Positions 7,182-58,204 of a stretch of 64,000 nt of DNA are shown here, piece by piece. The number at the start of each line of letters is the position of its first letter. The first letter of the stretch is position 1. The notes beneath the pieces are model-generated. The model saw only the letters and a program-made list of their open reading frames with translations. It had not been told where the DNA came from and ran no database searches. The translations under genes and the position numbers were made by a program. The stretch is taken from positions 2,889,057 through 2,953,056 of the forward strand of contig NZ_KB913029.1 in NCBI RefSeq assembly GCF_000384115.1, given 5' to 3'. This DNA is from Sporichthya polymorpha DSM 43042. Lineage in GTDB: Bacteria; Actinomycetota; Actinomycetes; Sporichthyales; Sporichthyaceae.

Positions 7182-7249
7182 GAAGATCAGGATAGGGCGG
7201 CACCGGGCCCGGTAGCCTGCCGATGCATCTTCTCGAGGGGGCGCGAGCT

Positions 7250-8368
7250 GTGACGCTGGGCAGGGTGGTCGGGACCGCGGTCCTCGCCGCGGGGACGGCG
7301 CGGGCGGTGCGCACCGCCTACCGGATCGCACGCAACTCCCGGCTCGAGCACGTCCCGTCGCCCGCCCCGCCGACGGTGACCGAACGCGTCTCGGTCCTGA
7401 TGCCGGCTCGGAACGAGGCGCACCGCATCGGGCCGCCGATCCGCTCGCTGGTGGCGCAGACCGGCTGCGAGGACCTCGAGATACTCGTGCTCGACGACAA
7501 CTCCACCGACGGCACCTCCGACGTCATCCGCGAGGCGGCCGGTGGGGATCCCTGCGTGCGGATCCTGACCGGCAAGCCACTGCCGGAGGGCTGGCGCGGC
7601 AAGCCGCACGCCTGCGCCCAGTTGGCCGCGGCGGCGACCGGGTCCGTGCTCGTGTTCGTCGACGCCGACGTCGAGTTCGAGCCGCACGCCATGGCCTCCG
7701 CAGTGACGCTGCTGCGCGAGAAGTACCTCGACTACCTCTCGCCGTTCCCGCGTCAGATCGTCGGCAGCTTCGGTGAACGGTTGATGCAGCCCGTCAACGG
7801 CTGGGTTCGACTCTCCGTCGTCGACATGCGTCACGCGGAGGACTCCCACGAGCCCGGCTCGCTGCTCGCCAACGGGCAGTTCATCGTCGTCGACGCCGCG
7901 GCGTACAAGCGCTCCGGCGGGCACGAGGCGATTCAGGACGCGATGATCGACGACGTCTGGCTCGCCGCCACGCTCAAGGCCACTGGGTCGCGCGGCGTCG
8001 CGGTCCGCGGGTCGGGGATCGCGTCGTGCCGGATGTACGAGAACTTCGCCGAGCTCCGCGACGGGTACACCCGCTGGCTGTGGGTGCTGTTCCCGAACAA
8101 CCGGGTGCTGGTCAGCACCTGCGCGAAGGTGATCGCCTCCGACGTCCTGCCACTGCTCGCCGCGCTGCGCGGTTCGAAGCTCGGGATGATCGGCTACGCC
8201 GCCGGCGTCACCGGCCGGGTGATCTCGGGCATCTCGTCCCGCGACCGCCTCGTTCCCGACGCCCTGTTCCACCCGGCGTCCTCAGCCCTGTCGGTCGGCC
8301 TCTACGTCGACTCGGTCCGGCGTCGCAAGCGCGACGCGGTCACCTGGAAGGGCCGCGCGATCGCCTGA
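7250..8368 (+). CDS. family 2 glycosyltransferase, membrane-associated (CrtQ/HpnB-like)
   Basis: A 372-residue GT2 enzyme. An N-terminal hydrophobic segment (residues 4-22) precedes the GT-A fold, starting SVLMPARNEAHRI near residue 48. The nucleotide-sugar and metal-binding acidic sites are LDDNSTDGTSD (about 81-91) and FVDADVEF (Asp138 and Asp140), with a later acidic pair in AMIDDVWLA. The C-terminus has hydrophobic stretches likely to sit at the membrane. Closest named groups, from memory of family features, are glycosyltransferases of carotenoid or hopanoid biosynthesis. I prefer GTG 7250, which has GAGGGG nine bases upstream, over ATG 7223, which has no such site. It lies among the lipid-cluster methyltransferases and could glycosylate the same product. 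Confidence 0.82.
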   Translation: MTLGRVVGTAVLAAGTARAVRTAYRIARNSRLEHVPSPAPPTVTERVSVLMPARNEAHRIGPPIRSLVAQTGCEDLEILVLDDNSTDGTSDVIREAAGGDPCVRILTGKPLPEGWRGKPHACAQLAAAATGSVLVFVDADVEFEPHAMASAVTLLREKYLDYLSPFPRQIVGSFGERLMQPVNGWVRLSVVDMRHAEDSHEPGSLLANGQFIVVDAAAYKRSGGHEAIQDAMIDDVWLAATLKATGSRGVAVRGSGIASCRMYENFAELRDGYTRWLWVLFPNNRVLVSTCAKVIASDVLPLLAALRGSKLGMIGYAAGVTGRVISGISSRDRLVPDALFHPASSALSVGLYVDSVRRRKRDAVTWKGRAIA

Positions 8369-8739: not shown

Positions 8740-9864
8740 TCACCGCGCAAGCGGGTTCGGGCCCTCCTTGCGGCACAGCACGCGGTAGAGGTTCGCCTGG
8801 CCGGTCCTGCGGATGATCGGGTCCAGCCAGTTGTCCGCGCGGTAGGCGAACTTCAGGAACGGCGGGGACACCTTCGTCCACACGAGCTCGTGGCGCTTCT
8901 CCCGCCACTTCGTGCGGGGCTGGGTGAGCCACGGGGCCCCCGGGTGGGGCGCGTAGGCCATGAACGGGGCGCCGGCGGCGCAGATGAGATCGACGGGGAT
9001 GTGCGCCTCGTCGAGCTGCACCGCGACCGGCCTGAGGTTCCGCTCGGTCAGCGCCGCGAGCAGGTTGCCCAGCGGCGGCATGTGCAGGTGCTGGGGCTGG
9101 AACCACTGGATCCACCAGCGGCCGAGCACACGCAGGATCGACTCCGGGTTCGGGACCTCGATCAGCAGGTAGCCGCCGTCGGGCATCACCCGGTGGGTCA
9201 GGTCGAGCTCGGTCCGGATGTCCATCACGTGCTCGAGGTAGTGGAACATCGAGATGACGTCGTAACGCCCCGTCAGTTCCGCCTCGAGGTCCGGGAACCA
9301 CGAGTGGTGGGCGTGGGAGATCCACCCCTTCTCGACCGCGTCGAGGACACCCTGACCCTGGTCGAGACCGTGGAAGGTGGTGTCCGGGAAGACAGTGGCG
9401 GCGTCCCGGCAGAAGTGGCCGTACCCCGCGCCGATGTCGAGCCAGTTGCGCGGACCCTCGCCGGGGCCGAAGAACGGGGAGAGCATCCGCGCCCGGGACT
9501 GGTATATCTCGGTGCGCGGGTCGAAGACGGCCTCCATCGTCGCCCGGCCGATGCCGTCGTAGAAGTCCTTGTAGTAGAAGTTCAGCCCGTCCGGGTTGAG
9601 CATCGGGTTCTGAAAGACGTGCCCGCACGTGCGGCACCGGTTGAGCTCGAAACGGCCGGGCTTGCCTTGGGTGGTGTCACGCGCGGCGAACATGCGCTTG
9701 AGGTTCTTCGACGCGCACCAGGGGCAGTCGGGGCGCCGCGGGTACCAGAACCGCTCGATGCCCCTCGCGATCTCGGCCTGGTAGTACGGCCGGGCGGCGT
9801 CGAACATCGCCTCGTAGTCGGCGGTGCTGGTCGGTGGGGCGGGCGGGGCGCAGGTGTCGCACAT
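8740..9864 (-). CDS. class I SAM methyltransferase with N-terminal Cys4 motif (paralogue 2 of 4)
   Basis: A 374-residue paralogue and last gene of the synthase operon. It starts eight bases after the stop of paralogue 3. Zinc-ribbon cysteines are CPWC (47, 50) and CRTCGHVFQNP; an extra CDTC at residues 2-5 is unique to this copy. Motif I is WLDIGAGYGHF, the catalytic-core block reads YDVISMFHYLEHV, and the WWIQWFQPQHLHM block is kept. Where the other copies have SMHHYLEH, this one has SMFHYLEH, and it is the only copy with Ile and Ala in the motif I loop, so its substrate site may differ. Substrate unknown. Confidence 0.85.
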   Translation of the reverse strand: MCDTCAPPAPPTSTADYEAMFDAARPYYQAEIARGIERFWYPRRPDCPWCASKNLKRMFAARDTTQGKPGRFELNRCRTCGHVFQNPMLNPDGLNFYYKDFYDGIGRATMEAVFDPRTEIYQSRARMLSPFFGPGEGPRNWLDIGAGYGHFCRDAATVFPDTTFHGLDQGQGVLDAVEKGWISHAHHSWFPDLEAELTGRYDVISMFHYLEHVMDIRTELDLTHRVMPDGGYLLIEVPNPESILRVLGRWWIQWFQPQHLHMPPLGNLLAALTERNLRPVAVQLDEAHIPVDLICAAGAPFMAYAPHPGAPWLTQPRTKWREKRHELVWTKVSPPFLKFAYRADNWLDPIIRRTGQANLYRVLCRKEGPNPLAR

Positions 9865-9872
9865 GAGGAGGG

Positions 9873-10928
9873 TCAGCCCTCCTTACGGGCCAGCACCCGG
9901 AACGCGTTGGAACCGCCGAACTTCATGACGGCCGGGCCGAGGTACTTGAAGTCGGCCTTGAAGGTCTGCTGCAGCACCTTCGGTGCCACCTTCCAGATGC
10001 CCTCATGCAGCTTGCGCTGGGCCGGCGTGCGCTCCGGGAGCCACGGGGAGTCCGGGTTCGGCGAGACGTGCGTGAGGAAGAAGATCACCGCGCACGACAG
10101 CTCGCCGGCGATGTGCGCCTCGCGGTGCTGCACCCGCACCGGGTTCAGACCACGCTCCTTGAGGGCCGAGAGCAGGTTCGGCAGCGGCAGCATGTGCTGG
10201 TGCTGCGGCTGGTACCAGGGGGCCCACCAACGACCGAACGCCTTGCCCAGCCAGGACTGTGCGTCCGGCACCTCGATCGAGACGAACGCGCCCTCGCGCA
10301 GCACGTCCGCGACGACGTCGAGGTCGTGCCGCGGATCGCGGACGTGCTCCAGGTAGTGGTGCATGGAGATGACGTCGTAGCGGTGCCGGATCGCCTCGAC
10401 GTGGTCGTCGATCTCGCCCGGGTAGATCGTGTCGAGCCAGCCGCGCTCCTTGCCGGTGAACAGCGAGGAGCCCATGTCGAGGCCGTCGAACGTGGTGTTC
10501 GGCCAGATCTTGCGGGCGTCGTTGGCGAAGTGCCCGTAACCGGTGCCGACGTCGAGCCAGTTCTTCGGCCCCTCCGGTGAGAAGAAACCCTCGACGATCT
10601 TCGCGCGCGGCTCGTACAGCCAGCCCTGCGAGGAGAAGACGCCGTCGATGAACTCGCGGCCGAAGCCGTCGTAGAAGTCGCGGTAGTAGAACTCCAGGCC
10701 CTCGATGTTCAGGCGCGGGTTCTGGAAGACGTGGTTGCAGGTCTTGCAGCGGTCCATGTAGAACACGCCGGGCTTGCGCTGCATGATGTCGGTCGTCCGC
10801 AGCCGCTGCGTGAGGTCGTGAGACCCGCACCACGGGCAGTCGTACCGGCGCGGTTCGAAGAAGCGGCTCCAGCCCCGCGCGATCTCCTCCTGGTACCGGG
10901 CGCGCTCGGCCTCGCTCACCTGAGGCAT
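9873..10928 (-). CDS. class I SAM methyltransferase with N-terminal Cys4 motif (paralogue 3 of 4)
   Basis: A 351-residue paralogue. CPWC is at residues 31-34 and the second pair is CKTCNHVFQNP. Motif I WLDVGTGYGHF, core YDVISMHHYLEHV and the WWAPWYQPQHQHM block follow. ATG 10928 has AAGGGGG nine bases upstream. A GTG at 10934 that overlaps the preceding stop as GTGA is the alternative and adds only two residues. It is tightly coupled to paralogue 4 upstream in the same operon. In the QPQHLN block the Leu is Gln. Its likely job is methylation of a product of the adjacent synthase; this is inference. Confidence 0.85.
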   Translation of the reverse strand: MPQVSEAERARYQEEIARGWSRFFEPRRYDCPWCGSHDLTQRLRTTDIMQRKPGVFYMDRCKTCNHVFQNPRLNIEGLEFYYRDFYDGFGREFIDGVFSSQGWLYEPRAKIVEGFFSPEGPKNWLDVGTGYGHFANDARKIWPNTTFDGLDMGSSLFTGKERGWLDTIYPGEIDDHVEAIRHRYDVISMHHYLEHVRDPRHDLDVVADVLREGAFVSIEVPDAQSWLGKAFGRWWAPWYQPQHQHMLPLPNLLSALKERGLNPVRVQHREAHIAGELSCAVIFFLTHVSPNPDSPWLPERTPAQRKLHEGIWKVAPKVLQQTFKADFKYLGPAVMKFGGSNAFRVLARKEG

Positions 10929-10930
10929 CG

Positions 10931-12010
10931 TCACTTACCCCCTTCGCGCACCGCGACGATCCGGTACGCATTCCCGTGCGACAACCGCGAGATCAGTGCC
11001 TTGTTGACGAGGATGTCGACCTTCAGTGCCGGGTTGATCAGTTTCGGGAAGACCTTGGTCCACGCGACCTGGTTGACCTTGCGCGAGAAGTCCGACGCCT
11101 CGGTCGTGCGCCACGGGTGGTCCGGGTCCGGCCCGATCTTCGTCATCGCGAATACCAGCGCCATCAGCACCTCGACCGGCTGGTGGGCCTCGGCCTGCTG
11201 GACCTCGAGCGGGCGGAAGCCGTGCTCGACGAGGGCCTGCAGCAGGTTGCCGACCGGTGGGAAGTTGAGGTGCTGCGGCTGGAAGTAGGGCACCCACCAC
11301 GACCGGAACACGTGGCGCAGCACGCACTCCGCGTCGGGCATCTCGATCTCGAGCAGCCCACCGGGCTCCAGCGCGCGGGCGGCGGCGGCGAGCTCGGCCC
11401 GCGGGTCGAGCGTGTGCTCCAGGTAGTGGTGCATGGAGATGACGTCGTAGCGGCCGCGGAGCTCGTCGGCGAGCTCGGGGAACGCGTTCTCGCGGTAGGC
11501 GTGGGCCAGCCAGCCGCGCTCCAGTGCGCGGTCGACGCCGCTGCCCTGGTCGAGGCCGTCGAAGACCGTGTTCGGCAGGATCTCCGCCGCGTGCTTGGCG
11601 AAGTAGCCCCAGCCGGTGCCGACGTCCAGCCACGAGCGCGGGCCGTCCGGGCCGGCGTGCCGCTGCACGAGCTGGGCGCGCGCGTGGTTCGCGGGCGCGC
11701 CGTAGGAGGACATCTCGTCGGCCTGCGCGGCGCCGCGGCCGTCGTAGAAGTCGCGGTAGTAGAAGTTCAGCCCCTCACCGGTCAGGCGCGGGTTCTGGAA
11801 GACGAAGTTGCACGTCCGGCACTTGGAGAGCGTGAAGACGCCGGGCTTGCGCTGGTACAGCTCCTTCGAGCGGACCTCGACGGTCAGTCGCGTCGACCCG
11901 CACCACGGGCAGTCGTGACGCCGCGGCTCGAAGAACCGCGCCGTCCCGGCCGCGAGCTGCGCGGCGTACCAGGCGCGGTCGTCGACGGTGTTGTCAGCCG
12001 TCTGCGTCAT
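10931..12010 (-). CDS. class I SAM methyltransferase with N-terminal Cys4 motif (paralogue 4 of 4)
   Basis: A 359-residue paralogue, the first methyltransferase of the operon. Its ATG overlaps the stop of the GT1 gene as ATGA. Cysteines 34/37 (CPWC) and 64/67 (CRTC) form the presumed zinc ribbon. The block GLNFYYRDFYDGRG is at about 81-93, motif I WLDVGTGWGYF at 127-137 and YDVISMHHYLEHT at 188-200, followed by WWVPYFQPQHLNF. The Cys4 plus Rossmann layout resembles the sugar C-methyltransferase / Methyltransf_23 groups, which use an N-terminal zinc domain. Translation coupled to a glycosyltransferase makes a sugar or glycolipid substrate attractive but unproven. Confidence 0.85.
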   Translation of the reverse strand: MTQTADNTVDDRAWYAAQLAAGTARFFEPRRHDCPWCGSTRLTVEVRSKELYQRKPGVFTLSKCRTCNFVFQNPRLTGEGLNFYYRDFYDGRGAAQADEMSSYGAPANHARAQLVQRHAGPDGPRSWLDVGTGWGYFAKHAAEILPNTVFDGLDQGSGVDRALERGWLAHAYRENAFPELADELRGRYDVISMHHYLEHTLDPRAELAAAARALEPGGLLEIEMPDAECVLRHVFRSWWVPYFQPQHLNFPPVGNLLQALVEHGFRPLEVQQAEAHQPVEVLMALVFAMTKIGPDPDHPWRTTEASDFSRKVNQVAWTKVFPKLINPALKVDILVNKALISRLSHGNAYRIVAVREGGK

Positions 12011-13170
12011 GTCAGCTTCTCCAGTCGGTCGGCCGCGGCCGGAGCGCCTCCGGCGGCCTCGAACTCCTCCGCGATCGCCGCGGCGGCGGTGCGGTAGGAC
12101 GTGTCGGTGAGCACGGCGACGATCGCGTCGCGCAGCTCGGCGGCGGAGACCCGGCCGAACTTCACGCGGATCCCCGCGCCGCACTCGGTCACCTGCGACG
12201 CGACGGCCGGCTGGTCGTCGCGGATCGGCGCGACCACCAGCGGCAGCCGGTGCGCGAGCGCCTCGCAGGTCGTGTTGTGGCCGGCGTGGCAGACGACGGC
12301 GTCCAGGTGGGGGAGCAGCTCGAGCTGCGGCACCCGCTCGGCGACGAGCACGTTCGGCGGCGGGTTCAGCCCGGCGGGCGGGGCGACGACGACGGCCTGG
12401 ACCTCGTCGACGAGCGTCCCGAGCGCCTCCATCGCGACCGCGAAGAACCGGTCGCCGGAGTCGCGGTTCACCGTGCCCAGCGAGATCAGCAGGTGCTTGC
12501 GCGCGGGGTCGAACCACGAGAAGTCGAACGCGGGCCCGGGGCCGCGGCCGCCGAACGCAGGCCCGACCATCGCGATGTGCGCGCCCAGCGGGTTCGGCGG
12601 GCGGAGCAGCCCCTCGGTCGAGTAGCAGAGGATGAGCTCGGGGGAGAAGCGCAGGTCGATCGCCGGGGCCAGGCCGAACTCCGCCTGCAGGTCGGCCATG
12701 CGCTCGTCGGCCCACTCCGTGAGCTTCGGCATCGTCTCGTACTGGCCGGTGAGCTCCGCGGTCGTCGACGCCGACGTCGCCCACGGCAGGCCCCGTTCGC
12801 GCGCGACGATCGCGCCGGCCAGGGCCTGCTGGTCGACGAGCATCACGTCCGGGCCGAACTCGTCGACGGCCGCGCGGACCCCACGGACCATCGACTGCGC
12901 GAGCGGGATGAGGAAGTCCTCCCAGAAGAACCGGAACGCCGTCGCCGCGCGCAGGCCGCGCCAGCGCTCGAGGCGGGAGGACAACGGCTCACCGGGGAAC
13001 TCGTCGTCGACCGCGAACACACGCGCGCCGGGCGGCAGCACCGAGGCCAGGTAGACCGAGTTGCCCGCCCACGCGACGTCGTGCCCGCGCGCGGACAGCT
13101 CCGCGGACACCGCGACCAGCGGCAGGATGTGCCCGGTCAGCGGAGGGACGACGACGAGGAAGCGAGCCAT
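12007..13170 (-). CDS. GT1-family glycosyltransferase (UGT/MGT type)
   Basis: A 387-residue GT-B glycosyltransferase that would transfer a sugar from a nucleotide donor to a small lipophilic acceptor. The N-terminal Rossmann domain starts FLVVVPPLTGHILPLVAV with the usual GH. The C-terminal donor domain holds LLISLGTVNRDSG and the signature HAGHNTTCEALAHRLPLVVAP, then DDQPAVASQV, matching the conserved motif of macrolide and zeaxanthin glucosyltransferases. No signal peptide. It starts seven bases after the hydrolase stop and ends in a 4-base ATGA overlap with a methyltransferase. In this operon the natural acceptor would be the chain made by the two synthase subunits. Confidence 0.87.
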   Translation of the reverse strand: MARFLVVVPPLTGHILPLVAVSAELSARGHDVAWAGNSVYLASVLPPGARVFAVDDEFPGEPLSSRLERWRGLRAATAFRFFWEDFLIPLAQSMVRGVRAAVDEFGPDVMLVDQQALAGAIVARERGLPWATSASTTAELTGQYETMPKLTEWADERMADLQAEFGLAPAIDLRFSPELILCYSTEGLLRPPNPLGAHIAMVGPAFGGRGPGPAFDFSWFDPARKHLLISLGTVNRDSGDRFFAVAMEALGTLVDEVQAVVVAPPAGLNPPPNVLVAERVPQLELLPHLDAVVCHAGHNTTCEALAHRLPLVVAPIRDDQPAVASQVTECGAGIRVKFGRVSAAELRDAIVAVLTDTSYRTAAAAIAEEFEAAGGAPAAADRLEKLT

Positions 13171-13176
13171 CGCGCG

Positions 13177-13995
13177 CTACCGCAGGCACGGGTCGGCCGC
13201 GCGGGCGGCCAACCACTCCACGACGATCTCCCGCACCTGCGGCGTCGCGTCCATCAGCACGGAGTGCCCCACGCCCTCGACGACGGTGAGGGTGGCGTGC
13301 GGCAGCAGGTCCTCGAGCTGGCGCTGGTAGTCCGGGACGTCGGACTTCTCGCCGTAGATCGCGCGGATCGGCATGCGCAGGGACCGGAGCCGGTCACGTT
13401 CGATCGGGCGGGCCTTGGTCAGGTCCGGGTAGAAGCTCGTGTGGTTCGCGAGGTCGGTGAGGGCGTCCATCATCTTGACGACCTTGCGGCCGAACCGGCG
13501 GATCCAGGCCTGAAGGTTCTCCTCGCCCATCTCCGCGACGACGGCCTCGACGCGCTGGCGCTCGGCGGCGATCTGCTCGGCCCACCCGTCGACGTTGAAG
13601 TGAGCCTCGATCAGAACCAGGCTCGCGACCCGCTCGGGATGCTCCACGGCGAAGTCGAGCGCGATCGTCCCGCCGTAGCTGTTGCCGACCAGGTGTACCG
13701 GGGTGGAGATCTCCAGGGCGTCGAGCACCCCGGTCAGATCCGCGATGGAGTCCTCCATCGTGTAACCGGTGCGCGGGCGCTCGGTGTCGCCGTGGCCGCG
13801 CAGGTCGTAGAGCACGCACTCGGCGCCGGTCTTCCCGACCGCCCCCGCGACCGTGTAGTAGAAGCTGGCCATGTTGTCCATGCCGAGGCCGTGCAGGAAC
13901 ACGACCGGGGGCGCCGTGCGCTCGGTCGGACCGCCGGCCGGGCGGTTGAGGTGCTGGACGTGGAACCGCACCCCGTTCGCGATCACTTCGGGCAT
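13177..13995 (-). CDS. alpha/beta hydrolase, serine type (candidate chain-release enzyme)
   Basis: A 272-residue alpha/beta hydrolase. The oxyanion motif is HG at residues 35-36 (FLHGLGMDN), the nucleophile Ser106 is in GNSYGG, and the histidine lies in VEGVGHSVLMD near the C-terminus. The serine nucleophile separates it from the Asp-type hydrolase at 3.1 kb. It sits between the free ACP and the glycosyltransferase in the synthase operon. Neither synthase subunit has a thioesterase domain, so this enzyme is the best candidate for releasing the chain, though it could instead act on a later ester. Confidence 0.82.
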   Translation of the reverse strand: MPEVIANGVRFHVQHLNRPAGGPTERTAPPVVFLHGLGMDNMASFYYTVAGAVGKTGAECVLYDLRGHGDTERPRTGYTMEDSIADLTGVLDALEISTPVHLVGNSYGGTIALDFAVEHPERVASLVLIEAHFNVDGWAEQIAAERQRVEAVVAEMGEENLQAWIRRFGRKVVKMMDALTDLANHTSFYPDLTKARPIERDRLRSLRMPIRAIYGEKSDVPDYQRQLEDLLPHATLTVVEGVGHSVLMDATPQVREIVVEWLAARAADPCLR

Positions 13996-14012
13996 GGAGG
14001 GAACTCGGCTCG

Positions 14013-14309
14013 TCAGCTGCGAACGCTGAGCACGTACTCGACGACGGTGCCCACGCGCATCTCGATGATCTCGTCCAGGTCCTTGTCGGCGAGGAAGCCG
14101 GCGAAGTCGACGTCGCCGCCGTAGTGCTCGGTCAGCTTGGCGCCGAACTTCACGAACTCGATCGACTCCATCTCGAGATCGTCCTCGAACGAGGTGTCCA
14201 GGCCGATCTCGAGGTCGAGCAGGTACTCCTCGCCGATGGTCTCGGTGATGAGCCGGCGCACGACATCGAGAACCTCCGCCTCGGCGGTGGTGCGTGCGTC
14301 GACTGTCAT
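14013..14309 (-). CDS. free-standing acyl carrier protein
   Basis: A 98-residue acidic, helical acyl carrier protein. The phosphopantetheine attachment serine is Ser49 in DLEMESIEF, which fits the ACP D/E-S-L/I-xx consensus. It lies between subunit B of the synthase and the hydrolase, with gaps of 25 and 17 bases. It would be charged by the phosphopantetheinyl transferase domain at the end of subunit B. It may shuttle a starter or finished acyl group between synthase, hydrolase and glycosyltransferase. It is distinct in sequence from the tandem ACPs inside subunit A (DLSIASLKR). Confidence 0.88.
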   Translation of the reverse strand: MTVDARTTAEAEVLDVVRRLITETIGEEYLLDLEIGLDTSFEDDLEMESIEFVKFGAKLTEHYGGDVDFAGFLADKDLDEIIEMRVGTVVEYVLSVRS

Positions 14310-14334
14310 GGCGTCTCCTCGAAGTGCGGGCAGT

Positions 14335-17300
14335 TCATGATCCCAGGTTCGTTCCCAGGATGTCGGATTCTCTCGTCCACCCGACGGCGTACGGGACCGG
14401 AAGTTCGCCGGAACGGGTGCTCACCCAGCGTCCGTTCCCGTCGACAACGACCAGCAACCGGTCGTTTTCGGCACGGGTCACCACGAACCGGGCCGGACGC
14501 CCACCGAGGCCCGTACCCGCCGCTTTCGCCACCGCCTCCTTAGCGGTCCAGAACCGGGTGACCCACTGCGCCCGGAGGGCCGGGTCGCCGCCGGCCGGCG
14601 CGACGGTCTCCAGCAGCTCGCGCTCGGACTCGGTGAGCAGGGCAGCCTCGGCCGGGGCGTCGGCCACCAGCTCGAGGTCGATCCCCACCCCGCCGTCGCC
14701 CGACCCGGCCAGGGCGACCGCGAAGGGACCCGAGTGGGCGAGCGAGAGGCGGACGCCCTCGCCGGGGCCGGTCGCGTACGGCGCGCCGAGGCTGTCGTTC
14801 GCGATCCCGACCTCGGCCGGGTAGATCGGGCCGTGCCCCTCCGCCCAGCGGTGGGCGCGCACGGCGTCCTTCGCGGCGATGCGGCCGAGCAGCCAGTGCC
14901 GCGCGGCGCGCGGCGTCCGTCCGGCGAGCTCGCTCTCCTCGGCAGGGGCGAGGTACTGACGGCGAGCCAGGTCCCGGGCGACCGGGTCGGTCCACGGTTC
15001 GACGAGCAGAAACCATCCGCCCGGCTGCTCCTGCGCGAGCGTGGAGCTCGCCGGGCGGCGGAACGCCTCGACGGTGACCGGGTCGCCCTCCAGCCGACGG
15101 TCCGTCCAGCCGGTGACGTGGCACCACAGGTTCCCGGCCCCGTCCCGCAGCTCCAGGTCGGCGACGACCTCGACGTCGGTGGCCGAACGAACCCGAACAA
15201 CCGTCGCGTACGTGGCGCCCACCGCCGGGGGCGGGCCGAAGAAGCTGACCGAGCCGATCGTCGCGGGCAGCACGAGGGCGTTCTCGGGGTGGATCGCGAC
15301 CCAGTAGCCGAGGAGCTGGCCCGCGGCGTCGAGCAGGGACCCCGGCGCCGGCAGCTCGGCCACGACGCCCCGCACGCCGTCGTCGGCGATCGCCGTCAGC
15401 TCCCGGACGCCCTGGAACTCCGGCCCGTGGAACATCCACCGCTCGGAGTACAGCCCGCGGGCGTCGGTGGCGGGGGCGCGCTCCCCGGTCAGCGGGGCGT
15501 CCCGCAACGCCGGAGGGGCGGGATACTCGTCGGCGAGCAGGACCGTGGCCCGCGCGTAGGTCTCGACGGGGCCGTTGCCGACCGAGCCGTCCACGACGAC
15601 GGAGACGACCGTCAGGTCCGCCCCGCCGTCCTCCCGCGGCTGCTCGGTCGCGGTGATGCGCAGCGCGATCTCGGGCTCGACGGCCAGTGGCCGCAGCGCC
15701 CGCACCCCGCGGACGCCGGTCACGAGCCGCTCCGGGACCAGTGACGCCGCGGCCTCGACGATGAGCGCGATCGTCCCCGTCATCGGGACGATCGGGTACC
15801 GCGCTTCCGCCGGCGCCTCCGCGGGCGCCTGCAGCAGCGCGTGGTCCGCGAGGTACGGGTCGCTCCGCAGCGACATCCGCCGCTCCGTCACCGCGCTCCG
15901 CGGCCCGCCCTCGCCCCGGCTGCCCTCTCCCCGAAAGCGCACTCCAGCACCGCGATTTTGCGTTCCGGGGTGCTGTGCTGCGCTTTCGGGAGAAGGCCGA
16001 CGGTGCTGTGCTGCGCTTTCGGGGGACGCGGCGGCGAGGACGTCGGCCGCGGCGGCGTTCGCCTCGCCGACGAAGGCGCGGAACTCCTCCGCGACCGCCC
16101 CACCCCCACTGGAGATGACATCTCCACCGATCGGGCCGATCCCACTGGAGATGACATCTCCAGTGGGGGTTGGTGTCGGGGTGGTGAGGGTCGGGGGGTC
16201 GACGAGGCGGAGCAGCGGGGACCCGAGCTGCAGCGGGACGGCGAGGCCCGGACGGCGCGGGGCGGGCGCGGCGGGGGCGGGGTCCTCGGTGGGCTGCTCG
16301 GCGGCGAGGCGGGAGAAGCGCGGGGCGGCGCCCTCGGTCCACAGCGCGGCGGCGACGCGGCGCAGCTGCTCGAGGCCGGTTCGCTTCGGGATGTTCGCGC
16401 TGATCACCAGGTGCGGGGTCGCGGGGTTGTCGAGGGTGTCCTCGACGAACCCGGGGAGGCTGCCGGTCCCGACCTGGACGAACGCGCGCACGCCCTCGGC
16501 GTACAGCCGCTGGATCAGCGGGCCGAACCGCACGGGTTCGACGAGATTGCGCAGCAGCAGGGACCGGACCTCGGCGTCCTCGGCCGGGTACGGCGCGACG
16601 GTCGTCGCCGACCACAGCGGCACCGAGACCTGACGTAGCGTCAGGCCGGCGATGAACTCGCGCGTCGGGCCGAGATACGGCTCCAGGTACGGGGTGTGAA
16701 AGCCGGACTTGAAAGGCAGCAGCGACCCGGCGACTCCGCGCTCGCGCAGCCGGTCGAGCGCGACGTCCACCTGGGCCTGCTCGCCGCAGATGATCGACTG
16801 GTGCGGGCAGTTGTCGTGCGAGAGCACGACGCGCTCCAGTCCGGCGATCGCCTCGACTGCGACCGAGGCTCCGCAGCCGAGCACCGCGAACACCAGGTCG
16901 GGGACGCCCGGCCCGGAGTCGAACGCGCGGGTCGAGTCCGCGAACTCCTCGAACGGGGCCCCGCCCGCGGCGATGAGCGCGCTCCACTCCCCGATGCTGT
17001 GGCCGGCGACGACGTCGGGCCGGATGTCCATCGCCCGCAGCGCGCGGTCCAGCAGCCGCCCGACGCCGGCGAGCTCGAGCCCGCGCCGGCCGAGCCCGGC
17101 GTCCGCCGCGCTGCGGACCGGCGGCAGCCCGAAGTGCGCGGCGACGTCGTCCACGCGCGGGGAGAAGACCTCCTCCAGCCCGGGAAACAGGAACGCGACC
17201 CGGCCGCCACCGGGGCCGAGCAACGGCGAGGTCGAGAACCACACGTCGTTGCGGCCGCGCCACGGCTTCCCCTGCGCCACGACCTTGCGCGCGAGCGCCA

Positions 17301-18960: not shown

Positions 18961-18967
18961 CGTCGTG

Positions 18968-21900
18968 CTAGCCCCCGAGCCCACCACTGAACGCTACGTC
19001 GAAAGCCGCCGGTTCGGCACACACGTACACCACCTGGGGGCCCTCGCCGTGCGCGAGCTCACGGAGCAGCGCGTTCACGCCGTCCTCCGGGTGGATCGCG
19101 CCGACGCCCTGCCGGGCGTAGCTGCGCAGCAGTTCCGCCGACACCATGCCGTCGCCGGCGGTGCCGGTCGGGAGCCAGGGGCCCCAGTCGACGCTGACGA
19201 CCCGTCCGGTGAAGCGGGTCTCCCACGCGCGAGCCAGGCAGTCCAGCGCGTCGTTCGCCGCGGCGTAGTCGCACTGACCGCGGTTGCCGAAGACACCCGA
19301 GACGCTGCCGAAGAGCACCAGGAACTTCAGCTCGGCCGGGAGGGCGGACGCCAGCGCGCGGGCGCCGTCGACCTTGGTCTCCCAGACGCGGGCGAACCCG
19401 TCCGCGGACTTGTCGGCGATCAGGCGGTCGTCGAGGACGCCGGCCCCGTGCACGACCCCGTCGATGCGGCCGTGACGGGCCATCACCTCGGCGATGCCGT
19501 CCGAAACGGCGGCGGCGTCGCGGACGTCGACCGCGGAGTACGTCACCGACGCGGCCACCGACTGCAGCGCCGTCATCGTCGCGCGGATCTCGCGCTCCGC
19601 CAGCACGCGGGCGACCTCACGCTCGACCTGCGCCGGGACGGTGACGCCCGACGCGATCAGCGCCCGGCGCAACGCGGCCTCGTCGGTCGCACCCGCGGTC
19701 GCCGGGCCCTCCTCCGCGGCCGGCAGCGGGCTGCGGCCCCAGAGCACGATGTGGCACCCGGCGACGCCGGCCAAACCGGCCGCGGTCCGCGCCGTGATGC
19801 CGCGCGCGCCGCCGGTCAGCAGGACGACCGCGCCGGGCGTGAGCCCGAGCTGGGCGGCGGACGGCAGGGCCTCGACCTCCAGCGGCGCCGCCGTCAGCGA
19901 CAGCGTCGAGCGGACACCCTCGGCGTACCCGACGACCTCGGGGCCGGCCGGGTGCACCAGCTCGGCGACGAGGCGGGAGGTCAGCAGCTCCGCCGTCTCC
20001 TTCGGGTCGATGTCGAGCGCCCGACACGAGACGTGCGGGTACTCGCGGGCGATCGTGCGGACCAGGCCGGCCAGACCCATGCCCGCCGGGGCGTCCGAGC
20101 GCGGCGGGGCGTCGGTGGCGGTGCGGTGGCCCATGCGGCCACCGGTGCCGGTGACGACGAGCAGCTGGCGCGCACCGCCGAGGACGGCGTGGCGCAGGAC
20201 CGCGAACGCGTCCGGCAGCGACGGCGGCTCGCTCGGTCCGGCGGCCCCGAGGTGGACGAGGATGTCGACGTCCCCGAGCTCGGTGTCCGGGTCCGTGGAG
20301 ACGGTCCGGACGGTCGCGCCCCGTGCGGTCAGCGCGTCGGCCAGCTCGATGCCGATGCCGAGCCCACCACCGACCATCGTGACGTGACGGCCGTGCAGGG
20401 TGCCGTCCGCCGTCAGCGGCGTCGTGGGGACGAGCTCCAGCCGGTAGCGCCGGACGGGCTCGCGCTCGGCCGGGGCGTCGGCCGGGGTGTCGGGAGTGAC
20501 CGGCGCGGCCACCACGACCGGAGCCGCGGTCGGAGGCGCCACCGGAGCCGCGTCGCCGACGATCGCGTCGACCATCGCGCGCATGGTGCGTAGCCGGGAG
20601 AGCTTGGCCTGGGCGTCCTCGTCGAGGCCGGCCTCGGGGAGGCGGTCGGCGAGGAGCCCCAGGATCTCGGTGCGCTTGAGGGAGGCGATCGACAGGTCGG
20701 CCTCGAGGTCGAGGTCGACGTCGAGCATCTCGGTCGGGTACCCGGTCCGCTCGGCGATCAGGTCGGTGAGGACGCTCTGCACGCGCTCGGCGGTGAGGCC
20801 CGCGGCGGGGGCGACCACCGCGGCCGGAGCCGGCGTGGGAGCCGGCGCGGCCGGAGCAACCGGAGCCGGCGCCGCCGCGGGTGCAGCCGGGGCGGTCTCG
20901 ACGATCGCGGCGACCATCCCGGCCATCGTGCGGATGCGGGAGAGCTTGGCCTGGGCGTCCTCGTCGAGGCCGGCCTCGGGGAGGCGGTCGGCGAGGAGAC
21001 CGAGGATCTCAGTGCGCTTGAGGGAGGCGATCGACAGGTCGGCCTCGAGGTCGAGGTCGGCGCCGAGCATCTCGGCGGGGTAGCCGGTGCGCTCGGCAAT
21101 CAGCTCGGTCAGGACGGCGAGGACCCGGTCGGCCGTGAGCTCGGTGCTGAGGTCCGCGGGCGCGGCGACCGGCGCGGGGGCCGGCTCGGCGACGACGACC
21201 GGCTCGGCGGGTGCCGGAGCCGGAGCGACGACCGGAGCCGGCTCGACGATCGGCGCGGGGGCGACGGTCTCCACGGTGGGAGCCGTCGCAGCCACCGGCT
21301 GCGCAACCGGAGCCGGCTGGGCCCCCGGAACGGCCGGCGCCACGGGGGCGGGGGCCGAACCGAGGAAACCGAGCACGACGTCACGCTGGGCCGCGATCAT
21401 CTCGCGGCCGGCGCGGAGGAATTCGAGCACGACGGCCTCGCGGCCGTCGGCGGGGGCGGCAACAGCAGCGGGAGAGACCGGCGCGGCGGGCGCGGGCGTC
21501 CCCTGGGCGGGCGTAACCGGGGTGGCGGCCGAGATCTCGACGCGCTGAGCCGGCTGGAGGCCGTTGGCCACGGGCTTCCCTTCGGCGGTGCGGACCAGGT
21601 GTCCGTTGACGACCCACCCGGGCCGGCGCGGGACGTCCTGGGCGGACACGACGGCGGTATCGCGTCCGGCGTACAGGGCCGTGGTGTCGACGGTGACACC
21701 GGCGGCGGACAGGCGGCCCAGCGCGGTGAGCAGGGCGGTCACGCCGTGCTTGCCGGGAGCGTCGGTCGCGATCGCGACGTGCGGGCGGTCGCCGAGGATC
21801 GCGCCCACCAGGCCGGTCAGCACGCGGCCCGGGCCGCACTCGACGAAGACGCGGGCGCCGGCGGCGTACATCGCCTCGATCTGCTCGGTAAAGCGGACCG

Positions 21901-24900
21901 GCGAGGCGACCTGCTCCGCGAGCAGTTCGCGCACCGCGGACGACCCGAGCGGGTACGGGGCGGCGGTCGCGTTGGCCCACACCGGCAGGTGCGGCGAACC
22001 GATCGAACGACGCATCAGCTCAGCCTCGAGCGTCCGCGAGGCGTCGGCGACGAGCGGGGAGTGGAACGCGCACGCGACCGGGATCCGCTGCGCGGTGATG
22101 CCGCCGTCCTTCAGCGCGGTCACCGCGGAGTCGACCGCAGCCGTCGGGCCGGAGATCACCGTCTGGTCGGGGGAGTTCAGGTTCGCGACGACGACTCCGC
22201 CGTGAGGGCCGCCCGAGCTCATCTGCCCGTTGAGCGTGGCGCGGATGGCCGCCTCGCCGGCGGAGACCGCGGCCATCGTGCCGGGGTCGCCCCCGGCCGC
22301 GGCGAGGATCGCCTCGCCGCGCGCGGCGGAGATCTCCAGCAGGTCGGCCGGGCTGATGGCGCCGGCCACGCAGAGGGCGACGAGCTCACCGTAGGAGTGG
22401 CCGGCGAGGTGATCCGGCGTCAGGCCGAGCGCGCGCAGCGTCCGGAACATCGCGAGGTCCGCGATGCCGAGCGCCGGCTGCGCGACGCGGGTGTCGGTCA
22501 GCGCCGCGCGCTGGGCGTCCCGGGTCGCGTCGTCGAACGCGGCGGGCGGGAACATCGTCGGCACCCAGCGGGCGCCGATCTCGAGCAGGTCCTGCAGGCG
22601 CGGGAACGCGGTGAACAGGTCGGCGAGCATGCCCGGGCGCTGGCTGCCCTGCCCCGGGAAGAGGAAGGCGACCTCGCCGGCGGGCTCCCCGGCCTTCTCG
22701 CCGTCGGCGACGAAGACCGCGGGGCCGGCGGTGAACGCCTTCGCGGCGGGGATCTTCGCCGCGAGGTCGTCGAGGTCGGTGGCGACGAACGCGACCTGCA
22801 CCGCGCCGGCGGAGGAGTCGTCGAAGGTCCGGGCCAGGTCACGCAGGCGCCACGGGCGGCCCGCGCCGTCGTTGGCCGCGCAGAGGGCGACGAGCTCGTC
22901 GAGCGCCGCGACGGCCTCGGCCCGGGTTGCGCCGCGGGCGACGAACAGCTCGGCCGGCCACTGGTCCAGACCCGATCGCGGCGCCGGTCCGTTCGTGTAC
23001 CCGGACAGGACCGTGTGGAAGTTCGTCCCGCCGAAGCCGAAGGCGCTGACGCCGGCGACGCGCGGCCGGTCGGCCGGCCACGGGCGCGGCTTCGTGTCGA
23101 AGACGAACGGGTTCTCGCCCGCGACCCAGGCGGGGTTCGGGGTGGTGAGCTGCCCGGTCGGCGGGAGGACGCCGGTGTGCAGCGCGAGCGAGGCCTTGAT
23201 CACACCGGCGAGGCCCGCGGTGCACTTGGTGTGCCCGATCTGGGACTTCACCGACCCGAGCGCGCACGACGCCGGCGCGGCGCCGGCCTCGGAAAAGACC
23301 TCGGACAGGACGGTGAGCTCGGTGCGGTCGCCGACGACGGTGCCGGTGCCGTGGGCCTCGACCAGGCCGACGTCGGCCGGGGAGACGCCCGCCTGCGCGT
23401 ACGCCCGCTCCAGCGCACGGCGCTGGCCCTCGGGCCGCGGGGCGGTCAGGCCGAGCGACTTGCCGTCGGAGGAGGAGCCGATGCCGGAGATGACCGCGTA
23501 GATCCGGTCGCCGTCGCGCTCGGCGTCGACGCGGCGCTTGAGCACGACGGCGGCCACGCCCTCACCGAGCGCGATGCCGTCGGCGTTCGCGTCGAAGGGC
23601 TTGCAGTGCCCGGTCTTCGACAGCGCGCCGACCGAGGCGAACTGCAGGTAGTCCTGGATGCCGTTGTGGATGTCCGCGCCGCCGGCCAACACCATGTCCG
23701 CGCCGCCGCCGCGCAGCTGCATGCACGCGACCTCGAGCGCGGCCAGCGCCGAGGCGCACGCGGCGTCGACGGTGTAGTTGGCGCCGCCGAGGTCCAGGCG
23801 GTTGGCGATGCGGCCGGAAATGACGTTGGCCAGCGCGCCGGGGAACGAGTCCTCGGTCAGCTTCGGCAGCAGCGCGTCGAGCTCGGCCGGCATCTCACCG
23901 TGGAACTGCGGGTACAGCGCACGGAAGCTGTAGGCGGCCGACAGGTCGGTGCCGGGCTCGGCGCCGAAGATGACGCCGGTCCGCTCGCGGTCGAACTCGC
24001 GACCCGCGGCGTTCGCGGTGGCGTAGCCGGCGTCGCGCAGCGCGCGGGCGGCGACTTCGAGGGCCAGCAGCTGCACCGGCTCGATCGAGGCGAGCGCCTG
24101 CGGCGGGATGCCGTACGTGAGCGCGTCGAACGGGACGTCGGGCAGGAAGCCGCCCCACTTGGAGGTGGAGCCCGTGCCGCCGTCGCCCTCGTAAAAGGTC
24201 TTCGGGTCCCAGCGCTCGGCCGGCACCTCGGTGATCGCGTCGTGGTTCGCGAGCACGTGCGCCCAGAACTCGGCGAGCTCGGCGGCCTGCGGGAAGACGC
24301 CCGCCATGCCGACGATCGCGATGTCGAGCCCGGCGTCGCCGTCGCTGCCCGGGGTGAGGTCGAGCTCGGCGGCCCGGGCGGCCAGGAACTCCGCCGCGCC
24401 GCTCGTCACCGACGCGTGCAGCTCGGCCACCGTGGTCACCGACGACCGCAGCCGCGCGACGTCGCCGATCATCACCATGCCGTCACGGGCCTGGGTGTTC
24501 TCGTCGACGGGGATGAGCGCGTTGCCCTCACGTCGGATGCCCTTGCTCGCGATCCGGAGCCGGCCGACGTTGAGCTTCTCCAGCTCGGCCCAGACCTGCT
24601 CGCGCGGCGTGCCGGCGGCGAGCATCGCCTCGCGCATCGAGGCGAAGGTGTCGACGAACGCCGTGGGCGCGCAGCGGGTGGCGTGCCCGGGGGCGGTCTC
24701 GAGCAGGACGGTCGAGTCGCACGCGATCGCGGCCCGCTGGAACGCCGGGCCGATCGCGCCCGCGCTGACCGCCTCGGCGGTGAACAGGTATGCGGTGCCC
24801 ATGAGAACGCCGACGCGGCCACCCGCGGCGGTGATCGGTGCGGCGGCCGCGGCCACCATCGCCGCCGAGCGGGCGTCATGGATGCCGCCGGCGAACAGGA

Positions 24901-26275
24901 CGTCGAGTTCCTCGAGGCAGTGGTGCTGCTCGCCGTACGCGAGCAGGTGGCGGATCTGGTCGTCCCAGAGCGGGAAGCTCGCACGCGGCCCCACGTGGCC
25001 GCCGCACTCCGAGCCCTCGAACACGAAGCGGCGCGCGCCCTCGGCGAGGAAGCGATCGAGGAGCGCGGGGGAGGGGACGTGGAGGAACGTGGTGATCCCG
25101 GCCGCCTCCAGCGGGGCGGCCTGCGCCGGCCGGCCACCGGCGATCAGCGCGTACTTCGGGCCCACCTCGTGGACGGCCTCGAGCTGGGCGCCCCGGACCT
25201 CGTCCGGGACGAAACCGAGGATGCCGACGCCCCAGGGGAGGTCGCCGAGCAGCTCGGCGGTCTCGACCAGCAGGGCCCGGGCGTCCTCGCCGGTCATGAG
25301 CGCGAGGGCGAGGAAGGGGAGCCCGCCCTGCTCGGCGACGGCCTGCGCGAAGGCGGCCTGGTCGGACACGCGGGTCATCGGGCCCTGGACGACCCGGGGG
25401 GCCCAGTCCGCGCGCTTGGTGGTGGCCACGGCGGCGGGGATCGAGGACTCGATCTGGGCGGCGACGGCGGCGACGATCCCGCCGGCGGTGACGTGCTTGT
25501 CGGCCAGCGGCCGCGCCAGCGCACCGTCCTGGCCGACGGGGAGGGCGGCCAGCGTCGCGCCGAGCCGGCTCGCCAAGCCCTCCGCGTCGGGCCGCGTCAG
25601 GTCGGGACGGGTGTAGATGCGGTGCCCACCGACCACCGCGGTCTCGGTGCCGTCCATCGCGCGGACGGCGGCCGCGACCTCGCGCGGCAGCTCGCACTCG
25701 CGGGCGAGCGCGAGCTGGGAGTCGAGGACGACCCCGGTGGCCCCACCGGCGATCGTGGCGGCCGCGGTGTGTGGGCCGATCCCGCCGGCCAGCCAGATCT
25801 CGGGCGCCGCGCCGGACGCCGTGCGCAGGTCGGCGGCGAGCAGGAGCTGGAGCAGGACGAAGGCGCTGGCCTCGCCGCTGACCCCGGACTCGGAGCCGCG
25901 GGCGAGCAGGCGGGTCGCGCCGGCGGCGACGGCGGTGCGGGCGGCGGCGACGGAGCCGACCTCGACCAGCACCGAGCGGCCGGCGCCGGCCGCGGCCTCG
26001 AGGCTCCAGGGCGCGTCGGCCGCGAGCACGACCAGGTTCACGGTGGCCGGCAGGTCCGCGGGGGTGAGCGGGCAGGCGGCGCCGACGCGGACACCGAGCG
26101 GGCCGCGCCACCACGAGGTGGCCTCGGCGAGGGCGGTCAGCGCGGTCTCGCGGTCCGCCCCGAGGTCGAGGACGCCAGTGGCACCGGCGCGGGCGACCGC
26201 GACCGCCAGGGCAGCGTCGGGCGCAGCGAACGGCGTGATCCCGAGGATCCGCCGGTGCCCGCTCGTCGTGCCCAT
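18968..26275 (-). CDS. PUFA-synthase-like type I PKS subunit A: NMO/ER-KS-AT-ACP-ACP-KR
   Basis: A 2435-residue multidomain synthase and first gene of the operon; GGAGGA lies ten bases before ATG 26275. The N-terminal ~640 residues hold TIM-barrel sequence of the nitronate monooxygenase / PfaD enoyl-reductase type. An incomplete-looking first copy (about 8-230, LAGGIGPHTAAATIAGGA) is followed by a fuller one (about 290-560, VQGPMTRVSD and EGSECGGHVG). KS (about 650-1080) has Cys840 in DAACASA. AT (about 1165-1480) has Ser1294 in GHSYGE. Two near-identical ACPs carry Ser1751 and Ser1865 in DLSIASLKR, close to the DLGIDSIKR form of PUFA synthases. The C-terminal KR (about 2100-2420) has Tyr2337 in DYAAAND. 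Together with DH in subunit B this is a full reductive set, so a saturated or partly unsaturated long acyl chain is plausible. Confidence 0.9.
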   Translation of the reverse strand: MGTTSGHRRILGITPFAAPDAALAVAVARAGATGVLDLGADRETALTALAEATSWWRGPLGVRVGAACPLTPADLPATVNLVVLAADAPWSLEAAAGAGRSVLVEVGSVAAARTAVAAGATRLLARGSESGVSGEASAFVLLQLLLAADLRTASGAAPEIWLAGGIGPHTAAATIAGGATGVVLDSQLALARECELPREVAAAVRAMDGTETAVVGGHRIYTRPDLTRPDAEGLASRLGATLAALPVGQDGALARPLADKHVTAGGIVAAVAAQIESSIPAAVATTKRADWAPRVVQGPMTRVSDQAAFAQAVAEQGGLPFLALALMTGEDARALLVETAELLGDLPWGVGILGFVPDEVRGAQLEAVHEVGPKYALIAGGRPAQAAPLEAAGITTFLHVPSPALLDRFLAEGARRFVFEGSECGGHVGPRASFPLWDDQIRHLLAYGEQHHCLEELDVLFAGGIHDARSAAMVAAAAAPITAAGGRVGVLMGTAYLFTAEAVSAGAIGPAFQRAAIACDSTVLLETAPGHATRCAPTAFVDTFASMREAMLAAGTPREQVWAELEKLNVGRLRIASKGIRREGNALIPVDENTQARDGMVMIGDVARLRSSVTTVAELHASVTSGAAEFLAARAAELDLTPGSDGDAGLDIAIVGMAGVFPQAAELAEFWAHVLANHDAITEVPAERWDPKTFYEGDGGTGSTSKWGGFLPDVPFDALTYGIPPQALASIEPVQLLALEVAARALRDAGYATANAAGREFDRERTGVIFGAEPGTDLSAAYSFRALYPQFHGEMPAELDALLPKLTEDSFPGALANVISGRIANRLDLGGANYTVDAACASALAALEVACMQLRGGGADMVLAGGADIHNGIQDYLQFASVGALSKTGHCKPFDANADGIALGEGVAAVVLKRRVDAERDGDRIYAVISGIGSSSDGKSLGLTAPRPEGQRRALERAYAQAGVSPADVGLVEAHGTGTVVGDRTELTVLSEVFSEAGAAPASCALGSVKSQIGHTKCTAGLAGVIKASLALHTGVLPPTGQLTTPNPAWVAGENPFVFDTKPRPWPADRPRVAGVSAFGFGGTNFHTVLSGYTNGPAPRSGLDQWPAELFVARGATRAEAVAALDELVALCAANDGAGRPWRLRDLARTFDDSSAGAVQVAFVATDLDDLAAKIPAAKAFTAGPAVFVADGEKAGEPAGEVAFLFPGQGSQRPGMLADLFTAFPRLQDLLEIGARWVPTMFPPAAFDDATRDAQRAALTDTRVAQPALGIADLAMFRTLRALGLTPDHLAGHSYGELVALCVAGAISPADLLEISAARGEAILAAAGGDPGTMAAVSAGEAAIRATLNGQMSSGGPHGGVVVANLNSPDQTVISGPTAAVDSAVTALKDGGITAQRIPVACAFHSPLVADASRTLEAELMRRSIGSPHLPVWANATAAPYPLGSSAVRELLAEQVASPVRFTEQIEAMYAAGARVFVECGPGRVLTGLVGAILGDRPHVAIATDAPGKHGVTALLTALGRLSAAGVTVDTTALYAGRDTAVVSAQDVPRRPGWVVNGHLVRTAEGKPVANGLQPAQRVEISAATPVTPAQGTPAPAAPVSPAAVAAPADGREAVVLEFLRAGREMIAAQRDVVLGFLGSAPAPVAPAVPGAQPAPVAQPVAATAPTVETVAPAPIVEPAPVVAPAPAPAEPVVVAEPAPAPVAAPADLSTELTADRVLAVLTELIAERTGYPAEMLGADLDLEADLSIASLKRTEILGLLADRLPEAGLDEDAQAKLSRIRTMAGMVAAIVETAPAAPAAAPAPVAPAAPAPTPAPAAVVAPAAGLTAERVQSVLTDLIAERTGYPTEMLDVDLDLEADLSIASLKRTEILGLLADRLPEAGLDEDAQAKLSRLRTMRAMVDAIVGDAAPVAPPTAAPVVVAAPVTPDTPADAPAEREPVRRYRLELVPTTPLTADGTLHGRHVTMVGGGLGIGIELADALTARGATVRTVSTDPDTELGDVDILVHLGAAGPSEPPSLPDAFAVLRHAVLGGARQLLVVTGTGGRMGHRTATDAPPRSDAPAGMGLAGLVRTIAREYPHVSCRALDIDPKETAELLTSRLVAELVHPAGPEVVGYAEGVRSTLSLTAAPLEVEALPSAAQLGLTPGAVVLLTGGARGITARTAAGLAGVAGCHIVLWGRSPLPAAEEGPATAGATDEAALRRALIASGVTVPAQVEREVARVLAEREIRATMTALQSVAASVTYSAVDVRDAAAVSDGIAEVMARHGRIDGVVHGAGVLDDRLIADKSADGFARVWETKVDGARALASALPAELKFLVLFGSVSGVFGNRGQCDYAAANDALDCLARAWETRFTGRVVSVDWGPWLPTGTAGDGMVSAELLRSYARQGVGAIHPEDGVNALLRELAHGEGPQVVYVCAEPAAFDVAFSGGLGG
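20577..21112. repeat. tandem duplication encoding the two ACP domains
   Basis: The ACP-coding segments at about 20577-20770 and 20919-21112 are almost identical in DNA as well as protein, offset by 342 bases (114 codons). They are joined by an Ala/Pro-rich linker. The synonymous positions are also mostly conserved, which points to recent duplication or gene conversion. Confidence 0.8.
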
Positions 26276-27623: not shown

Positions 27624-27856
27624 TACAGGCTCCAGGTGGGATGGGCCGCGGGCGGGCGACGCGATGAGGACAACCCCTCGGGAGTGGCCCGGGGGGATCA
27701 CGGGAGCTGGCCTCCCGTACCTATCGCGGGGAAATTCGGCGCCTGGTCAGGCCCACTTGAGGGGCCGAATGGCCGATGTCCCGACTTGCCCCGGGCCGCT
27801 ACAGATCGCTACGCACTGTTACCGGTCGCTACGCGGCGCTACCGACCCCTCTGGAG

Positions 27857-43988: not shown

Positions 43989-47861
<3,873 letters not shown>

Positions 47862-47917: not shown

Positions 47918-47991
47918 CTCTTTCTGGGGAGTACCCGCAGCGGGGCGGCTGCGAGAAGGTGGCAGTCCGACCAGTGCGACGGAGGACTGCG

Positions 47992-49161: not shown

Positions 49162-49199
49162 CACACCGAGGACGGCGCCCGGTTCGGCAGGATGGGCCC

Positions 49200-50056: not shown

Positions 50057-50059
50057 CGC

Positions 50060-54391: not shown

Positions 54392-54472
54392 GGCGGACAT
54401 CCGGTGCGGATGCCGGTCGGAAAGTCTGTCCAACGCGCCCTCCGGTGTCGACGCCGGGGCGAAGGAGGGTCG

Positions 54473-56011: not shown

Positions 56012-56033
56012 GCCGCCCGGCCCGGGGGCGGCG

Positions 56034-57926: not shown

Positions 57927-57957
57927 GGGCCTCCAAGAGCCGAAGGCGGATTCACTT

Positions 57958-58147: not shown

Positions 58148-58204
58148 CCTCCGTTCGGACGGCGACCGCGAGAAGCTCAACACCTCGAAGAAGACGGAGA
58201 AGCG

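Follow-up and report, generated by a model that had tools for sequence, protein, structure and literature searches.

What product is made by an operon that couples a large lipid-type synthase to a glycosyltransferase and a row of methyltransferases? The question is raised by a gene cluster of Sporichthya polymorpha DSM 43042, which occupies positions 8740–26275 on the minus strand of the 64,000-nucleotide stretch of DNA analysed here (the window). A first-pass annotation of this DNA described a secondary-lipid operon whose long acyl chain is released, glycosylated and methylated. The central secondary-lipid reading is supported by the present analysis, while the product chemistry is still deduced from the enzymes encoded. 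It is proposed, with moderate confidence, that the operon makes a methylated long-chain glycolipid by means of an ArsA/ArsD-type synthase.

Operon organisation

All eight open reading frames are present in the interval, confirming the operon. The order is polyketide synthase genes PKS1 and PKS2, acyl carrier protein (ACP), alpha/beta hydrolase (ABH), glycosyltransferase GT1 and methyltransferases MT1, MT2 and MT3, with successive intergenic gaps of −20, 25, 17, 6, 23, −4 and 8 bases. These measurements bear out the first description of eight minus-strand genes that overlap or lie within 25 bases of one another. A fourth methyltransferase gene, MT4, and an opposite-strand glycosyltransferase gene, GT2, lie beyond the lower coordinate of the operon (Table 1). 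The gene order is not due to chance, since dozens of genomes, spread over at least six phyla, have it as well. The cluster is present as a single copy in the 5.5 Mb genome, and the closest named match to PKS2 (83% identity) is from a metagenome-assembled genome (MAG) of Sporichthya sp.

Relation of the synthase to ArsA and ArsD

Pfam identifies NMO, ketosynthase (KS), acyltransferase (AT), PP-binding and ketoreductase (KR) domains in PKS1, and KS, AT, PS-DH (dehydratase, DH) and ACPS (phosphopantetheinyl transferase, PPTase) domains in PKS2. This agrees with the domain set first assigned, except that PKS1 carries two tandem NMO/FabK-like barrels instead of one. As read from the sequence, the enzyme classes are accompanied by intact motifs: catalytic motifs were detected in the KS, AT, ACP, KR, DH and PPTase domains, including the active-site cysteine in both KS domains and GHSxGE in both AT domains. 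Multiple tandem ACPs on one protein are a feature of secondary-lipid synthases, and PKS1 has two such motifs. The expected DLGIDSIKR-like motif is thus present in two tandem copies, but its actual sequence is DLSIASLKR, with serine at the attachment position (LSIASLKR starts at residues 1747 and 1861). In the free-standing ACP, the pair E48-S49 is invariant across 76 aligned rows.

PKS1 is colinear with Beijerinckia ArsA, with 39% identity over 2088 amino acids (aa) and both barrels covered. On plasmid pBIND02 of Beijerinckia indica, the ArsA type I synthase has two type III polyketide synthases (PKSs) and a DH-PPTase protein as neighbours. This last protein, ArsD, is matched by the C-terminal half of PKS2 (32% over 520 aa, E=4e-57), and PKS2 can therefore be described as a KS-AT joined to an ArsD. 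By sequence comparison, the characterised synthase closest to the pair is ArsA/ArsD (Type P) and not the Pfa, Hgl or enediyne synthases, which had been put forward as the comparison set. Shulse and Allen placed Beijerinckia indica in Type P together with Azotobacter in 2011, and reported ArsA acyl chains of C22–26 (PMC3098273). In a further account, Azotobacter ArsA is reported to supply long fatty acids, C23–C25 in length, to the type III PKSs ArsB and ArsC (PMC4824345).

A KS tree was built without partial and long-branch rows, and with three KS domains as the sample of modular PKSs. KS1 domains from six or more phyla group with ArsA and PfaA-like KS domains, apart from the three modular ones (support 100/99), and KS2 forms a separate clade. 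The first-pass annotation had named firm placement among ordinary modular PKSs as the outcome that would speak against its reading; KS1 instead falls away from the sampled modular domains, and the reading stands. A modular PKS origin was rejected on this phylogeny, with its three modular KS domains. The synthase is almost certainly of the secondary-lipid (Ars/Pfa-like) type.

As ArsA/ArsD is the closest characterised synthase, an ars-like alkylresorcinol or alkylpyrone was also considered as the product. The Beijerinckia relative, however, has its two type III PKSs beside ArsA, whereas a search of the whole 5.5 Mb Sporichthya genome for type III PKSs (PF00195) gave no match. An alkylresorcinol product would need a non-homologous cyclase; it was rejected because the genome lacks a type III PKS, and such a product is extremely improbable.

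Tandem reductase barrels in PKS1

The region of PKS1 that precedes the KS domain consists of two tandem NMO/FabK-like barrels, at approximately residues 1–225 and 290–620. Barrel 1 (query residues 1–258) matches Clostridioides difficile FabK with E=7e-7, and none of 25 aligned family sequences has the loop histidine there. In barrel 2 the loop histidine (His427) is found in 25/25 family sequences. The AlphaFold2 model of residues 1–620 has a pLDDT of 88.7, and barrel 2 of this model matches FabK with Z 31, compared with Z 26–29 for PfaD; identity in the structural alignments is 25% and 13%, respectively. The reductase had been described as a separate PfaD-type protein, but it is fused to PKS1 and its sequence is closer to FabK than to PfaD.

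From the alignments and the model, we infer one working enoyl reductase (ER; barrel 2) and one degenerate copy (barrel 1). The same tandem barrels are present in Beijerinckia ArsA, and this arrangement, common to the cluster and ArsA, is new as far as could be found. A tandem reductase with one apparently catalytic and one apparently degenerate barrel is a structural feature that deserves a test.

Conservation of the gene neighbourhood

When 84,980 species genomes were scanned, 545 stretches encoding a relative of PKS2 came to light, and the best 80 were taken as loci. PKS2 is followed by an ACP gene in 70/76 assessable loci; the hydrolase is present in 63/72 and GT1 in 59/63, as well as in one locus with an inverted block (L030). 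The core of synthase pair, ACP, hydrolase and GT1 occurs in most of the best 80 loci. At least six phyla are represented, and these include Actinomycetota, Myxococcota, Planctomycetota, Acidobacteriota, Gemmatimonadota and Pseudomonadota. On this sequence evidence, the coupling of ACP, hydrolase and GT1 to the synthase is conserved. The recurring core rules out that the cluster is unique to the Sporichthya genome. The gene set had at first not been recognised; it corresponds to the known Type M and is widespread, and what sets the Sporichthya lineage apart is limited to the methyltransferase expansion and GT2.

A further core gene beyond the methyltransferase was sought in the loci, and none was established there: ABC transporter ATPases, WS/DGAT-like and GHMP-kinase-like genes lie near the cluster in minorities of loci only. 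The WS/DGAT-like acyltransferase genes, identified by eye in a few Actinomycetota (L020, L032, L042, L054, L087 and L090), perhaps acylate the product. In addition, the PKS2–ACP–hydrolase–GT1 block is found twice in two sister-genus genomes (L010 and L009), the second copy being more divergent.

The synthase was found in only 10 genomes of a 396-genome phylum sample. In one family (that of G087) it was found in 32/35 genomes, and in 26/27 of the high-quality ones. This family is probably Frankiaceae, because the locus of one member (L116) is 81–85% identical at the DNA level to that of Frankia torreyi in its longest pieces.

Release, glycosylation and methylation

The hydrolase belongs to the alpha/beta hydrolase family of Pfam, and its residues Ser106 and His244 are conserved in 98% and 100% of 82 aligned rows. 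GT1 is of the UDPGT/EryCIII type in Pfam and of the macrolide glycosyltransferase group in NCBIfam (TIGR01426), with OleI, YjiC and OleD as its relatives in the PDB. This group membership, together with weak matches of the hydrolase to macrolide esterase models, could instead point to a glycosylated small polyketide or lactone antibiotic, for which GT1 would be a tailoring or self-resistance enzyme. Such a product is decidedly improbable: the KS phylogeny excludes the sampled modular PKSs, no module series is present, and near-universality in one family combined with spread over phyla is less typical of an antibiotic.

MT1–MT3 match Methyltransf_23 in Pfam, and four cysteines are invariant in the family alignment of MT1–MT4 (METHYLTRANSFERASES). 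The Sporichthya-family copies form one group in the methyltransferase tree (96/99). Elsewhere, the majority of loci have a single Cys4 methyltransferase or none; the four-gene expansion is therefore lineage-specific, confined to the Sporichthya family. Among solved folds, the AlphaFold2 model of MT3 (pLDDT 93) comes closest to three sugar C-methyltransferases, MtmC at Z 20.6 and TcaB9 and KijD1 at Z about 18; the alignments cover the zinc/N-terminal domain, at approximately 15% identity. The invariant residues Y209, E211 and H212 are spaced as the TcaB9 residues Y222, E224 and H225, which according to the entry titles have been mutated. This match is no more than suggestive, because E-H pairs are frequent in S-adenosylmethionine (SAM) enzymes. 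In the Sporichthya family GT2 keeps its place next to the operon, as seen in four related genomes. It resembles HpnB and CruG in NCBIfam, in both cases below the cut-off; these two families act on lipids, and GT2 is probably accessory.

The methyltransferases and GT2 might also represent a separate, co-located function in polysaccharide or cell-wall methylation, beside a core that makes a lipid. The methyltransferase was not found in about half of the assessable loci, its expansion is limited to one family, GT2 separates MT4 from the operon, and homologues in several other genera have a long N-terminal extension that contains hydrophobic segments. However, MT1–MT3 lie inside the operon, where no gap next to them exceeds 23 bases, and genes of this methyltransferase family also come after GT1 in Frankia, Streptomyces, Actinomadura, Myxococcota and a planctomycete. 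A function separate from the lipid is judged unlikely.

Two further observations concern methyltransferase genes among the loci. Downstream of GT1, L025, L028, L041, L068, L072 and L084 encode a methyltransferase homologue with a long N-terminal extension and hydrophobic segments, and the extension had no Pfam match in the two tested (L068 and L072). A leucine-carboxyl-methyltransferase-like gene is present in six loci (L018, L051, L068, L087, L088 and L094); in L088, the representative tested (PF04072), it stands directly after GT1.

Proposed pathway and product

In the proposed pathway, PKS1 and PKS2 would together form an iterative ArsA/ArsD-type synthase, with carriers activated by the PPTase domain of PKS2. 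The KS and AT domains would carry out malonyl condensation on the tandem ACPs, and KR, DH and barrel 2, the FabK-like one, would reduce each extension; the result would be a long chain, reduced in large part or completely and possibly retaining a hydroxyl group. A long reduced chain is quite probable. The free ACP would then receive the chain, the serine hydrolase would release it and GT1 would attach a sugar. The four Cys4 methyltransferases would methylate this sugar or its nucleotide sugar precursor, and a second sugar might be added by the lipid-type GT2. Chain length, the order of these steps, the acceptor, the sugar, the site of methylation and the biological role are all inferred. It is likely that the lipid is glycosylated, and there is an even chance that methylation takes place on the sugar.

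Iterative synthases can skip reductions, and the chain might accordingly be partly reduced or polyhydroxylated, in the manner of a heterocyst glycolipid or a polyunsaturated fatty acid (PUFA), before it is glycosylated. Hgl lipids are sugar-bearing hydroxylated chains (PMC11804610, PMC4661987), and PfaA (TIGR02813) is the top NCBIfam profile for PKS1, at 992.6 bits against a cut-off of 1010.1 bits. A chain of this kind nonetheless has a low probability, given that ER, DH and KR are all present with intact motifs, that the KS-CLF and second DH of PfaC are absent, and that the closest characterised homologue, ArsA, supplies type III PKSs with long fatty acyl chains.

Several points weigh against the proposal of a methylated long-chain glycolipid. 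No product is known for the cluster, and chain length is not readable from sequence. The hydrolase might instead be an acyltransferase or have a different substrate, and it is missing from some Actinomadura loci. Glycosyltransferases of the macrolide type also glycosylate polyketides and small drugs. The lead of the MT3 fold matches is small, with Z 20.6 and 18.4 compared with about 18 for unrelated SAM enzymes. Finally, a Cys4 methyltransferase is present in only 29/57 assessable loci, and methylation is therefore not essential to the core.

If the proposed glycolipid is nevertheless made, the cluster may stand for a whole class of methylated long-chain glycolipids, structurally undescribed and widespread, with members in six or more phyla. 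This wider view is put forward tentatively; it would extend to nearly all Frankiaceae, where the product might serve as an envelope or vesicle lipid, and to a Sporichthya variant with unusually many methyl groups.

Features of the locus

Table 1. Coordinates of the cluster genes in the window, with the evidence for each assignment.
Feature	Position	Strand	Evidence
PKS1, 2435 aa: degenerate NMO barrel, FabK-like ER barrel, KS, AT, ACP, ACP, KR; ArsA-like iterative type I synthase	18968..26275	−	Pfam, colinearity with Beijerinckia ArsA, fold comparison, motifs
PKS1 N-terminal tandem NMO/FabK-like region, residues 1–620	24416..26275	−	AlphaFold2 model, fold searches, alignment counts
PKS2, 1550 aa: KS, AT, DH, PPTase	14335..18987	−	Pfam, ArsD homology, PPTase motifs
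Free-standing ACP, 98 aa, ESIE serine motif	14013..14309	−	Pfam PP-binding, alignment
ABH, alpha/beta serine hydrolase, 272 aa, candidate for chain release	13177..13995	−	Pfam, conserved residues
GT1 glycosyltransferase, 387 aa, macrolide-GT (OleI/OleD/YjiC) type	12007..13170	−	Pfam, TIGR01426, PDB relatives
MT1, Cys4 zinc-ribbon-type SAM methyltransferase	10931..11983	−	Methyltransf_23, four invariant Cys
MT2, same Cys4 family as MT1	9873..10934	−	Methyltransf_23, four invariant Cys
MT3, same Cys4 family as MT1	8740..9864	−	Methyltransf_23, AlphaFold2 model, fold search
GT2 glycosyltransferase, related to HpnB/CruG (hopanoid/carotenoid glycosyltransferases), probably accessory	7223..8368	+	Pfam; NCBIfam below cut-off
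MT4, fourth Cys4 methyltransferase, beyond GT2	6087..7181	−	Open reading frame, family alignment, tree

Directly upstream of PKS1, and on the same strand, is a CAP-domain gene of the cysteine-rich secretory protein family (27069–27701). Elsewhere in the window, approximately 10 kb (47959–57926) between an rpoC-sized open reading frame (43989–47861) and rpsG/fusA/tuf (57865–62454) hold genes for a luciferase-like monooxygenase and a protein O-mannosyltransferase, the latter a glycosylation gene within the str-operon region.

Comparison with known systems

The ars operon (Type P) of Azotobacter vinelandii and Beijerinckia indica, which makes alkylresorcinol lipids, in Azotobacter those of the cyst wall, resembles the cluster in that ArsA is colinear with PKS1 through both NMO-like barrels and ArsD is homologous to the DH-PPTase half of PKS2. 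It differs in its type III PKS partners, ArsB and ArsC; the Sporichthya cluster has instead an extra KS-AT in PKS2, a free ACP, a hydrolase, GT1 and methyltransferases. The Pfa (PUFA) synthases share the KS-AT-ACP-ACP-KR core and the best profile match of PKS1, which falls below its cut-off. In contrast to the separate PfaD, the ER of PKS1 is N-terminally fused and FabK-like, and PKS2 (KS-AT-DH-PPTase) has one DH and no KS-CLF, whereas PfaC has KS-CLF and two DH domains. Enediyne PksE carries KS-AT-ACP-KR-DH-PPTase on a single chain; here two proteins share these domains between them, and a second KS-AT as well as an ER is added. The heterocyst glycolipid (hgl) synthases are alike as a concept, in which a long-chain lipid synthase is coupled to a glycosyltransferase, and differ from the KS-AT-DH-PPTase, GT1 and methyltransferases found here.

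The closest correspondence is with Type M, a secondary-lipid synthase of Frankia, Actinosynnema, Streptomyces avermitilis and Renibacterium whose product was unknown to Shulse and Allen in 2011 and whose hosts included all three finished Frankia genomes of that year (PMC3098273). The PPTase of PKS2 has P1a (LGAP) and P1b′ (LSLAH) and lacks P0 (hRxhLS). The same set, P1a x(G/D)xP and P1b′ hShxH without P0, is stated for Type M and is common to the M–T group (PMC3098273). The cluster was found in Frankia torreyi, a Frankia alni MAG, Streptomyces and Pseudonocardiaceae (L025, L084, L026–L029 and L097), in addition to its near-universality in the apparent Frankiaceae. Since hosts and PPTase motifs agree, the synthase is very probably Type M; the four-methyltransferase expansion and GT2 set the Sporichthya family apart.

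The synthase type was thus already known by 2011, without a product, and no reported product for the cluster was found in the full text of open-licence papers. No word beginning with 'glycosyl' occurs in the main text of PMC3098273, and that text therefore does not describe the conserved coupling of ACP, hydrolase and GT1 to the synthase. As far as could be found, this coupling across phyla is new, as is the four-methyltransferase variant. The recurrence of the coupling in at least six phyla turns a synthase class without a product into a testable glycolipid prediction, and the near-universality of Type M-like clusters in the apparent Frankiaceae poses a direct question about the envelope lipids of that family.

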